64,000 nucleotides of DNA from Hyphomicrobium album (GTDB taxonomy: Bacteria; Pseudomonadota; Alphaproteobacteria; Rhizobiales; Hyphomicrobiaceae). Position 1 is the first letter of the stretch; every line of letters starts with the position of its first letter. Location of the stretch: the NCBI RefSeq assembly GCF_009708035.1, contig NZ_WMBQ01000001.1:1612001-1676000 (forward strand). The letters run 5' to 3'. Shown here piece by piece: positions 3,479-43,592 of the stretch. The notes under the pieces are model-generated. The model saw nothing but the letters and a program-made list of their open reading frames with translations, did no database searches and was not told where the DNA came from. The position numbers were made by a program, and so were the translations under genes.

Positions 3479-3513
3479 GCCTGCACATGTCCCGGGAGGA
3501 GCAGGCTTTTTTT
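3479..3513 (+). terminator. Intrinsic terminator with no obvious upstream gene
   Basis: Plus-strand hairpin GCCTGC (3479-3484) / GCAGGC (3501-3506) followed at once by seven T (3507-3513). The stem can be extended by A-T and G-T pairs into the T-run. No plus-strand gene ends here: the nearest gene upstream is the CPBP gene on the other strand. Bases 3230-3478 hold no recognisable CDS or tRNA. Either an unrecognised short transcript ends here or the structure belongs to the ssrA promoter region. Confidence 0.5.
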
Positions 3514-3535
3514 CCGCCGCATCTGCCTCTATATT
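3507..3535 (+). promoter_or_regulatory. Possible ssrA promoter
   Basis: TATATT at 3530-3535 is a good -10 box placed about 7 bases before the first hairpin of the acceptor RNA. A 17-base spacing puts the -35 box in the T-run 3507-3512, which is a poor match, so only the -10 is persuasive. This is inference from position and composition. Confidence 0.35.
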
Positions 3536-3539
3536 GAGC

Positions 3540-3836
3540 GGGCCGGATTCGTCCGGCTATGGCGATAAACGCGGTCGTAATAAGCCGATCGGACCCGGGG
3601 GCAGTACCCGGCGCCTCCACCACATGCCCGTGTAGCGCACAGCTCGGCGCGGGCATCTGATGGGGGCGAACTAGGATCGACGAAGGTGTAAAGGGCTTAG
3701 CTTTCGCTCGGCATGGTTCCGCCGTCATCGGGCCATTCAGAATAGTTGCCAATGACAACTATGCTGAGGCTGCTCTCGCTGCGTAATGCAGTGCGATTAG
3801 CCTGAACTTGAAGCCCTTACCCTTAGCCGGGTAAGG
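3540..3836 (+). ncRNA. ssrA: tmRNA, circularly permuted two-piece form
   Basis: tmRNA rescues stalled ribosomes and tags the peptide for proteolysis. Gene order is reversed as known in alphaproteobacteria: acceptor piece first, then coding piece. The acceptor piece begins near a perfect hairpin GCCGGA-TTCG-TCCGGC (3542-3557), contains a T-arm (CCGGG 3595-3599, seven-base loop, CCCGG 3607-3611) and ends CGCCTCC-ACCA (3612-3622) with an encoded CCA. After a 39-base intervening segment the coding piece starts GGGGGCG (3662-3668), which pairs with CGCCTCC as the acceptor stem (one G-U). The tag frame at 3748-3786 reads ANDNYAEAALAA followed by TAA. An AAGGGCTT/AAGCCCTT pairing (about 3691 and 3811) closes the coding piece. 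The outer ends are approximate. sspB, which recognises the tag, follows directly. Confidence 0.93.
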
Positions 3837-3844
3837 CGCGGTCC

Positions 3845-3880
3845 GGAGGGCACCGGGCAACAGAAGCCCTCCAATTATTC
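3845..3880 (+). terminator. Probable ssrA terminator
   Basis: GGAGGGC (3845-3851) and GCCCTCC (3866-3872) form a 7-bp stem followed by AATTATTCTC, an AT-rich but not pure T tail. An earlier 8-bp hairpin CCTTACCC/GGGTAAGG (3815-3836) overlaps the presumed 3' end of the coding RNA and may be a processing signal instead. Confidence 0.45.
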
Positions 3881-41342: not shown

Positions 41343-41418
<76 letters not shown>

Positions 41419-41519
41419 ATTTCCTCGATCTAACGACCTACCCACTGCGACACGCAGCTAGGCGACCGCTGACATCCGTCGCGATCGCCTTGGGCTCGCC
41501 GGTACCAACCGCGCGTCGC

Positions 41520-41771
41520 CTAGCGGCGGTGGCGGCGTGCCCGGTAGTAGCGTCGCGGCTCATAGTAATTGCCGCAGGCCGGGCTGCGTGTACCGCTGGA
41601 GCACCCATAGCGCTCGAGCAGCTCATAGTCGCGCTCACTCACCGGCCCGCCAGCACGCGCGTTGGCCCGGGCATGCTCGAGCTCGGCGCCTTCAGTGACG
41701 CCGCCAGCCGAGGCAGCGGTCGGTAAGCCGAGTAGCAACGCACCGGCGAGGGCGAGATACGACTTCTGCAT
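41520..41771 (-). CDS. Small exported Arg/Tyr-rich protein
   Basis: 83 residues: signal peptide MQKSYLALAGALLLGLPTAASA, then a mature part with two Cys (YGCSSGTRSPACGNYY) that could form a disulphide and a basic Tyr/Arg tail (EPRRYYRARRHRR). I recognise no family. Position just after the tRNA on the opposite strand. Probably periplasmic. Confidence 0.65.
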   Translation of the reverse strand: MQKSYLALAGALLLGLPTAASAGGVTEGAELEHARANARAGGPVSERDYELLERYGCSSGTRSPACGNYYEPRRYYRARRHRR

Positions 41772-41874
41772 GCGTCGCCTCCTTGCATGGCTAACAGGCA
41801 GAACGCTCGCGCACGCCTATTGTTCAATGCCCGAGCCGGCGTAGGCCGCCGAATGCGACGAGCCACCCGTGGTC

Positions 41875-42255
41875 TCAAGCCGAAAGTGACGCCGGAGCGC
41901 CATGCGGCGCCCGACCCATAGCGCGGACGAACATCGGTGTTTCCAGCAGATAGTCATCCCGCACCGCTTCTGCCGATTGGGCCGTGGCAAGCACCGCATC
42001 CGCGGGCCTGACGGTCATGCGGCTTGGCGCCCGAGCGACGTTAGAGTTCCGCGCGCCGTGCTCGTTTGCCTCGGCGGCAAGCCAGGCGACCAGCACCCGC
42101 TCCCCTGCGGTGACTATGAGAGCAAGCGACAGACCGGCGCAGGCCCCAGCGGCGCCGCCCAATCCGGCCCCGATGATCACTCCGGCGAAGATATTGACGA
42201 CGGGTATCAGCATCATCCCGGCAAGGATGACGATCGCAATCATATCCAGCAGCAT
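41875..42255 (-). CDS. Small membrane protein, unknown
   Basis: 126 residues from ATG 42255 (MLLDMIAIVILAGMMLIPVV), preceded by GGGGGAAAAG. A Gly-rich hydrophobic region spans residues 5-55 (AGVIIGAGLGGAAGACAGL), enough for two close helices; the rest is hydrophilic with no known domain. Function unknown. Confidence 0.55.
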   Translation of the reverse strand: MLLDMIAIVILAGMMLIPVVNIFAGVIIGAGLGGAAGACAGLSLALIVTAGERVLVAWLAAEANEHGARNSNVARAPSRMTVRPADAVLATAQSAEAVRDDYLLETPMFVRAMGRAPHGAPASLSA

Positions 42256-42432
42256 CTTTTCCCCCGATGCAGCTACCACCCCTAAGTGACGGATACCGTG
42301 ACTGAATCGTTGGCCGTCAGCGCGGCGAGCGCGTGGCCAAGTCATGGCGTCGTGCGCAAACGGCTAACCCAGTCGGGAGTTCCGACCCCTGCGGGGATTC
42401 TTTCGCATCGGCGGCTCGTACCAGGGGGATGG

Positions 42433-42475
42433 AAAAAAGAGCGCCTCGGCCCGATTCGGCGCTCGGCCGAGGCGC
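42433..42475 (-). terminator. Strong intrinsic terminator of the candidate small RNA
   Basis: Perfect 11-bp stem GCGCCTCGGCC (42441-42451) / GGCCGAGGCGC (42465-42475), loop of 13, followed on the minus strand by TCTTTTTTCC (42440-42431). It is the strongest terminator in the window and is orientated to stop a minus-strand transcript for which no protein gene exists. Confidence 0.8.
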
Positions 42476-42560
42476 CCGCGGCTGAGGGGAAGAGTTGCCT
42501 CTGCCCCGCCGGTTCTTCAGGCGCGCCGACCCGCTCACGCAGGCGTGCGCCGAATGTGCA
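42433..42560 (-). ncRNA. Candidate structured small RNA divergent from oxyR
   Basis: No gene on either strand occupies 42256-42629, yet the minus strand shows a complete transcription unit. Promoter: TTAGAA (42595-42590), 18-base spacer, TATATC (42571-42566), putting the start near 42559. Downstream lie a GGGG-C-AGAG-GCAA-CTCT-T-CCCC hairpin with a GNRA-type loop (42507-42486), and an 11-bp GC-rich stem followed by TCTTTTTTCC that ends the RNA near 42433. Predicted length about 127 bases. The region contains no credible ORF. Its promoter shares sequence with the oxyR promoter region. It could be a member of a known alphaproteobacterial sRNA family that I cannot place. OxyS of E. coli is also divergent from oxyR, but homology is not implied. 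Confidence 0.55.
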
Positions 42561-42629
42561 GCCTTGATATAGACAGCCCCCAACATAAGTTCTAATCGTA
42601 TATTGTTCTCTCGCGGATCAGAGTTTCTT

Positions 42630-43592
42630 ATGCCCCCGCATGTGACGCTCAAGCAGCTCCGCTATTTCGATGCGCTCGCCCGCGAGCAGCATTTCGGACG
42701 CGCGGCCGAGGCCTGCGCTGTCACCCAGCCGGCCCTCTCGATGCAGATTCACGAGCTCGAGGAGCAGCTCGGTCTCATGCTGGTCGAGCGCACGCGCGCC
42801 GGCGTGCTGCTGTCCGACAAGGGGCGCGAAATCGCCGCCCGCGCCGCCGGCATCCTCGGCGACGTGCACGAGATGATCGAGTTCGCAAAGCACTGCCGCA
42901 ACGTCCTCTCGGGCTCGCTGCGCTTGGGCGTCATTCCGTCGATTGCGCCCTACATGCTGCCGCCGCTACTGCCGCTGTTGCGCGACGGCTATCCCAATCT
43001 CGAGCTGCACGTGCGGGAGACGCAGACTTTGCCGCTCTTGCAGGAACTGATCGAAGGCAAGCTCGACGTGCTGTTGCTCGCTCTGCCGATTGTCCAGGCC
43101 GAGCTCGAAACGCTGTCGCTGTTCGACGATCGCTTCCTCTTGGCACTGCCACAGTCGCGCCGGCTGTCGAGCCGCGTGCGCGCGACCAAGGACCTCGTCG
43201 AGCACGAGCGACTGCTGCTGCTCGAGGAAGGGCACTGCCTGCGCGACCAGGCATTGACCTACTGCAATCTGCAGCAGGTCTCGACCGTCAACACGTTCGG
43301 CGTGTCGAGCCTGTCGACCATCGTCGAAATGGTGGCGGCCGGCTACGGCATCACCCTGCTGCCGGAGATGTGCCTCAACGTGGAGATTCGCGGACGCGAT
43401 ATCGGCGTGACGCGCTTCGTCGAGCCCGAACCCTATCGCACCGTCGGCCTTGCGTGGCGGGCGACGTCGCCGCGTTCGGGCGATTTCCGCGAGTTGGGAC
43501 GGCTTATCAAAGTTGCGTGGTCGCGCGGCTGCGTTCCACCGGGCCGGAAGAATCCGCGTCACACCCGTCCGCTCAACGCGCCGACGTCCTGA
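42630..43592 (+). CDS. oxyR: OxyR-type hydrogen peroxide sensor, LysR family
   Basis: 320 residues from ATG 42630 (MPPHVTLKQLRYFDALAREQ). N-terminal LysR helix-turn-helix (GRAAEACAVTQPALSMQIHE), then the regulatory domain. The peroxide-sensing disulphide pair is visible in EEGHCLRDQALTYCNL: the two Cys are nine residues apart, like C199 and C208 of E. coli OxyR. GYGITLLPEMCL follows. Activates antioxidant genes on oxidation; targets are not in the window. Its 3' end overlaps the convergent DUF882 gene by 20 bases. A TATATT (42599-42604) is a plausible -10. Confidence 0.92.
   Translation: MPPHVTLKQLRYFDALAREQHFGRAAEACAVTQPALSMQIHELEEQLGLMLVERTRAGVLLSDKGREIAARAAGILGDVHEMIEFAKHCRNVLSGSLRLGVIPSIAPYMLPPLLPLLRDGYPNLELHVRETQTLPLLQELIEGKLDVLLLALPIVQAELETLSLFDDRFLLALPQSRRLSSRVRATKDLVEHERLLLLEEGHCLRDQALTYCNLQQVSTVNTFGVSSLSTIVEMVAAGYGITLLPEMCLNVEIRGRDIGVTRFVEPEPYRTVGLAWRATSPRSGDFRELGRLIKVAWSRGCVPPGRKNPRHTRPLNAPTS

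Follow-up and report, generated by a model that had tools for sequence, protein, structure and literature searches.

Comparison within the Hyphomicrobiaceae supports a predicted RNA gene in Hyphomicrobium album, on the minus strand at positions 42559–42433 of the window (the whole stretch of DNA analysed, 64,000 nucleotides of contig NZ_WMBQ01000001.1), divergent from an oxyR-like gene. The best explanation, in which we have moderate confidence, is that the gene encodes an OxyR-induced RNA that would act in trans with the loop of its terminator as the contact site, and our best reading is that the predicted RNA would be analogous to OxyS without being homologous to it, apparently an independent counterpart. 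If true, this would extend OxyS-like RNAs to a group for which our searches of the open-licence literature, judged by titles and the starts of abstracts, gave no report of an RNA at this site. The initial annotation of the window, made from its letters, had suggested a structured RNA gene in this position, and the suggestion is strengthened by hairpins that are kept while the neighbouring sequence drifts, by compensatory changes and by a LysR-type site.

The locus and the parts of the predicted RNA

42433–42559, minus strand: predicted small RNA of about 127 nt, both ends predicted
42617–42631, minus strand: distal half of the OxyR-type site, ATAAG-N5-CTGAT (T-N11-A), overlapping the oxyR start codon (36 of 37 RNA loci scanned)
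42585–42600, minus strand: proximal half of the OxyR-type site, TACGATTAGAACTTAT, which includes the −35-like TTAGAA at 42595–42590 (36 of 37 loci)
42566–42571, minus strand: −10-like TATATC, seen in the sequence; the RNA would start near 42559
42512–42559, minus strand: variable 5' region (36% mean pairwise identity, eight members of the genus)
42479–42511, minus strand: stem-loop 2 with a GNRA loop (GCAA), from alignment and pairing counts
42439–42477, minus strand: stem-loop 3, the intrinsic terminator hairpin with loop GCGCCGAA at 42462–42455, from fold and conservation
42433–42440, minus strand: U-rich tail TCTTTTTT, seen in the sequence
42630–43592, plus strand: oxyR-like LysR-family regulator, from profile and structure-relative searches

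The divergent gene is, by its sequence, OxyR-like: the best solved relatives of its product are OxyR proteins (2.3e-56), among NCBIfam models that of OxyR fits best, scoring 241 bits and falling short of its curated cut-off of 329, and the protein contains GHCLRDQALTYC, which we take to be the spacing of the OxyR redox cysteines. The regulator is 87–94% identical to three Hyphomicrobium records, and the RNA interval matches once in its own genome (3.9 Mb). The 374-base gene-free gap described initially (42256–42629) holds if the minus-strand reading frame is taken to start at 42255 and oxyR at 42630, but its size varies with the chosen start because the ORF list opens that minus frame at 42345. 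The other elements were found where they had been placed, all on the minus strand, with TTAGAA (42595–42590) and TATATC (42571–42566) separated by 18 bases, the GCAA-loop hairpin at 42507–42486, and 11-bp arms at 42475–42465 and 42451–42441 followed by TCTTTTTTCC.

A conserved LysR-type double site

The initial annotation also gave the RNA its own promoter. The two boxes are present and a LysR-type double site is conserved, but no sigma-70-type promoter emerged from a simple consensus scan of 41500–43500, and different loci have different −10 regions (TATATC, TCTAGA, TCTATG and TACCGT, by eye). For an activator-dependent alphaproteobacterial promoter, absence from such a scan is no surprise, and the best-conserved promoter feature is the double site and not an E. 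coli-like −35/−10 pair. The distance from the distal to the proximal block is 33 nt in all 35 loci showing both.

A composite pattern of an ATMAG-N5-CTKAT-like block with a CGATTAG-like block 33 nt from its start, sought within 420 nt of oxyR, recovered this rigid double site in 39 of 41 RNA loci, 11 of 16 outgroup katA loci, 3/5 family katA loci, 5/8 katG loci and 6/22 other loci, and not once on the one strand scanned further out (132,375 bases beyond 450 nt). Because the RNA loci supplied the pattern, independent evidence comes only from the katA and katG sets and from the off-site count. One example each of catalase, KatG-type peroxidase and GapR was verified with Pfam, and the remaining loci were found by tblastn (katA and gapR) or by eye (katG). 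As the double site occurs both at RNA loci and at the catalase loci of relatives, the RNA therefore appears to stand behind the type of promoter that drives catalase in those relatives. The proposed link to peroxide would rest on this position and on the site common to relatives' catalase genes.

Folding, conservation and compensatory changes

The stem predicted for the last hairpin has 15 pairs and a single bulge, and it closes a loop of 8 nt that reads GCGCCGAA (42462–42455). This hairpin had been described as a strong terminator, and folded together with the GNRA hairpin and the U tail it does better than all 200 dinucleotide shuffles (42510–42433: −48.5 kcal/mol against −35.1, sd 3.4; z −3.93; 0/200 as good), but the consensus scan did not list it; the scan permits loops of 3–8 and no bulge, and missed the hairpin for this reason. 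The single terminator-like site that was listed in 41500–43500 lies on the plus strand, against 1.1 expected by chance. Folding of 42568–42427 was also better than every shuffle (z −3.10, 0/200), while the GNRA hairpin alone (z −1.94, 10/200 shuffles as good) and the 5' part alone (z −1.63, 11/200) are unremarkable. We note that the U tail is poor in several relatives.

Identity along the interval, taken as the mean pairwise value for the eight genus members with gaps counted as differences, is 70% in the promoter, 36% in the 5' region, 72% in stem-loop 2 and 86% in stem-loop 3. It had been set down beforehand that hairpins failing to outlast the drift of the surrounding sequence would count against an RNA here, and both hairpins clearly exceed the 5' region. 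The covariation check suggested at the same time, on the oxyR upstream regions of related genomes, likewise gave a conserved secondary structure with compensatory changes, as looked for in a small RNA, in two genera.

In genus g10 (16 sequences), 86.7% of cells in a three-hairpin structure are paired and both sides have changed in 12 of 35 pairs. Such changes affect 31 cells compared with 11.9 in shuffles, and the covariation score of 0.257 was reached by none of 500 shuffles and lies above the slid controls (0.073–0.125). In the window's own genus (g1, eight sequences), 93.0% of cells are paired and both sides have changed in 5/27 pairs; when the structure is slid by +2 or +3, the score nearly reaches the one observed (0.188 and 0.196 vs 0.212), with only 58% and 57% of cells paired. 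Further standard pair types do not exceed shuffles in either set (g10, 34 vs 32.6, 146/500; g1, 14 vs 12.9, 120/500), and it should be noted that the structures counted were drawn from the same sequences. Within stem-loop 2 of the window's genus the outer helix (four pairs) is paired in 100% of cells, and the inner helix (eight pairs) in 81.3%, with both sides changed in three pairs. By eye, the loop of this stem is mostly of the GNRA type in g1 and g10 and mostly of the UUCG/UCCG type in g21. A further feature was seen in the first hairpin region of the g10 RNAs, where ATCAC and the TTT after it do not vary in any of the 16 (alignment A3, L036:1305–1452, RNA positions 45–55); this element, which the window's RNA does not have, is possibly a second contact site.

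The predicted RNAs might alternatively be short mRNAs for a small peptide, and an ATG or GTG frame does begin within 5 nt of the predicted start in 9 of the 14 g10 members scanned. We regard this as extremely improbable, as no frame of at least 10 residues is common to the eight g1 members (four have none at all) or to the seven g21 members (three have none), and three of the 14 g10 members scanned have none of this length either.

Distribution of the hairpin in the family

A search with the regulator at 1e-60 matched 79 of 103 family genomes, which provided 77 loci with upstream sequence (L018–L054 and L074–L113; G078, where the match is at a contig edge, and G126 were left out). In 41 of these 77 loci a hairpin lies some 150–550 nt from oxyR, and its loop, RCGCCGAA, hardly varies. 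Among the first 30, a strong hairpin with an RCGCCGA loop was present in 28 (L032 and L042 are without it) on quite different stems. A regex-plus-fold test within 420 nt found 39 loci, from which the weak L089, L092 and L095 were set aside, and five were added by the covariance model R1 described below or by eye (L076, L080, L083, L084 and L087). The position and the loop CCGCCGAA of L076 (R1 score 21.7 bits) led us to count it, yet L092 (22.0) and L094 (23.4), which score as well, were left uncounted, as were L089 and L095; counting all four would give 45/77.

The RNA is found in every member of g1 (8/8), g21 (7/7), g22 (4/4) and g5 (1/1), in part of g10 (16/22), g23 (4/6) and g15 (1/2), and in no other genera of the family; two of the remaining g10 genomes have katA with the hairpin and four have neither. 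An OxyR tree of 91 rows (without L032, L055, L060, L062 and the oxyR of G060) requires at least five changes of RNA state, three of them forced by well-supported branches (quick method). A GapR-like neighbour occurs in 45 of 96 loci and is convergent in all 45.

R1 was built from 28 linked hairpins, which therefore match it by construction. Because alignment A2 shifts part of the g10 stems by one column, the RNAalifold consensus was poor and R1 was given a hand-written 11-pair structure. It also finds hairpins outside the model, in g22 (E 5.8e-7 and 1.1e-6) and in G119 (6.8e-7), as well as the katA-linked hairpins considered below, and in its own genome gives one strong match (8.6e-15) with the next at E 0.17. 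At E 5e-4 it matched 5/297 order genomes, of which four belong to the family and the fifth, the non-family G132, has its match at a distance from oxyR. The 2/289 class genomes matched are the window's own and one from outside the family. Silence of R1 is weak evidence, because the g10 hairpin of G085 (L053) was missed and few candidates per genome were scored in the large searches.

The loop was then compared with 241 distinct terminator-like hairpins from the loci and the window, 22 of which have CGCCGA near the middle; on reading, 19 of these are linked to oxyR or katA (about 14 separate places) and three are unlinked, in a set that is no random sample because the loci are rich in oxyR neighbourhoods. 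Among the covariance matches away from oxyR, those at L238 (G005:C35), L239 (G105:C84) and L244 (G132:C7) do have CGCCGA(A) at the loop of a hairpin, and by eye that of L238 precedes a YbjQ-like reading frame. The matches in G104, G075, G087, G108 and G428 were rejected as the motif does not lie in the hairpin loop.

The hairpin and katA

In Rhizobiales the gene divergent from oxyR is described as katG (katA in some studies), with a bidirectional promoter region and regulation by OxyR, and 45 RNAs are reported to be affected by peroxide in Agrobacterium (PMC11975290). The locus described here is like these pairs in its bidirectional promoter region and unlike them in its divergent product, predicted to be a short RNA in which no reading frame is conserved. 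The slot is occupied by katA in 16 of 19 order loci, which are the best-matching of 120 genomes with a match and an uneven sample.

Six family loci have katA near oxyR, and the loop hairpin lies behind katA in three of them, with loops GCGCCGA in G090 and G092 and CCGCCGAA in G011 (R1 E values of 0.0037, 1e-4 and 3.9e-7, respectively); no loop hairpin was found behind the katA genes of G067, G009 and G013. In G090 and G092, both from g10, katA sits between promoter and hairpin, and in G011 the RNA lies between oxyR and katA. As three of the six loci carry it behind katA, the 3' hairpin is apparently the constant part of an OxyR-driven transcript, and the gene order (oxyR, promoter, katA or nothing, hairpin, with gapR convergent in 31 of the 41 RNA loci) suggests that the hairpin may belong to this transcript with the reading frame being optional.

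When the 3' flanks of family katA genes were read (30 loci, with L162 left out), three had the loop hairpin and 26 others had none, CGCCGA letters in five of the 26 lying outside hairpin loops (by eye). Sixteen outgroup katA flanks were fetched, and the loop hairpin was found in 0/14 read in the right frame by script and eye (L187 and L192 excluded). The katA hairpin of G034 resembles that of G011 (E 0.0013), on a contig without an assembled oxyR. A KatA tree (46 rows, with L103 replacing L162 for the same gene) leaves the hairpin-bearing katA genes unjoined, and for this reason katA loss and katA insertion are both possible. We had considered G011 (L026) as an intermediate in which the RNA was a katA leader and dropped it, as its KatA is sister to the unlinked KatA of G104 and, by eye, its katA has its own promoter-like stretch after the hairpin. 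In two genus members with the RNA, G004 and G007, a search for catalase (PF00199) at E 1e-20 found nothing.

Two other accounts bear on this arrangement. The RNA could be a 5' leader or attenuator of a downstream minus-strand gene, given that in the window a reading frame (41875–42255, without a Pfam or NCBIfam match) follows on the same strand and that katA follows the hairpin in G011. This seems very unlikely to us, since the next gene found is a convergent GapR-like gene in 31 of the 41 RNA loci and the promoter-like stretch in G011 would serve its katA separately. The promoter and terminator could also be a relic left after katA loss and making a short RNA without function. The slot does hold katA in many relatives, the 5' part of the RNA drifts and both the RNA hairpin and katA are missing from four of the 22 g10 genomes, but we find such a relic quite improbable, as it would be unlikely to keep a nearly invariant 8-nt loop or a second hairpin with compensatory changes.

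Comparison with OxyS and a possible mechanism

The OxyS RNA of E. coli is about 110 nt long, divergent from oxyR, activated by OxyR and ended by an intrinsic terminator, with stem-loops as contact sites, and it pairs with targets such as fhlA in an Hfq-dependent manner. The window's RNA is like OxyS in being divergent from oxyR with a shared regulatory region, which is the arrangement looked for in a member of this class, and also in its similar predicted length, its terminator end and its stem-loops, with OxyR activation here only expected; it is unlike OxyS in its loops, in the class of bacteria and in having katA as a frequent neighbour in relatives. The Rfam search suggested by the initial annotation gave no family: at the gathering threshold the interval matched neither OxyS (RF00035) nor any other small RNA family, and OxyS was absent from the five weak sub-threshold matches in the interval, which we took as chance (the best, ctRNA_pGA1, scored 17 bits vs 45). 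In the whole window the gathering threshold returned only an alphaproteobacterial (permuted) tmRNA at 3503–3875, found by two overlapping models, and one tRNA at 41343–41415.

We propose that OxyR in its oxidised form would occupy the double site between both genes and switch on the RNA promoter, and that RNA polymerase would make about 127 nt before stopping at the terminator hairpin. The exposed terminator loop GCGCCGAA may then pair in trans with target RNAs, probably helped by Hfq, a gene for which is encoded in the genome, and the GNRA hairpin before the terminator may stabilise the RNA. The complement of 10 bases of the loop occurs at 31 sites in the same genome (one being the RNA itself) compared with 17 for the reversed control, and the search gave no convincing target among the 30 of 31 sites that had loci, 10 of which were inspected closely.

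This target search is in keeping with a hairpin kept for itself, as a terminator, an RNA stabiliser or a protein-binding loop of transcripts from this promoter and not as part of a base-pairing regulator, and so is the same loop trailing katA in three oxyR-linked cases. We nevertheless consider this doubtful: a terminator has no need of a fixed loop, and CGCCGA lies near the middle of just 22 of the 241 terminator-like hairpins, only three being linked to neither oxyR nor katA (with the loci being non-random). An OxyR-induced RNA acting in trans is the reading we prefer.

How such an RNA may have arisen is a more tentative matter. OxyS itself reportedly originated from a peroxidase mRNA, as Krieger et al. 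are said to have described in Mol Biol Evol in 2022, and the present case would be similar in that an RNA linked to peroxide occupies the site of a gene for a peroxide-removing enzyme and has the same type of promoter, and different in that the enzyme is a catalase and the setting is the Hyphomicrobiaceae. It is possible, though we would not call it probable, that OxyS was in effect invented a second time here, when the loss of its reading frame turned an OxyR-induced catalase mRNA with a regulatory 3' hairpin into a free-standing small RNA, with one and the same loop regulating targets from within a katA 3' UTR as well as in an independent RNA. The series of loci, with katA alone, katA with a trailing loop hairpin, RNA with a trailing katA, and RNA alone, makes an origin of a small RNA from an mRNA testable by comparison and by experiment.

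The slot upstream of oxyR varies in other ways. In three g23 loci (L041, L045 and L048) the interval from promoter to hairpin contains, by eye, insertions of a repeated palindromic GATTGYCGCKTCCGAC unit. Six g25 members (L054, L096, L098, L099, L101 and L102) are without the hairpin and, also by eye, share a TCACGTTTTYGRAA-like element that follows the OxyR-type promoter within the first 120 nt upstream of oxyR; another RNA may occupy the slot in these genomes.
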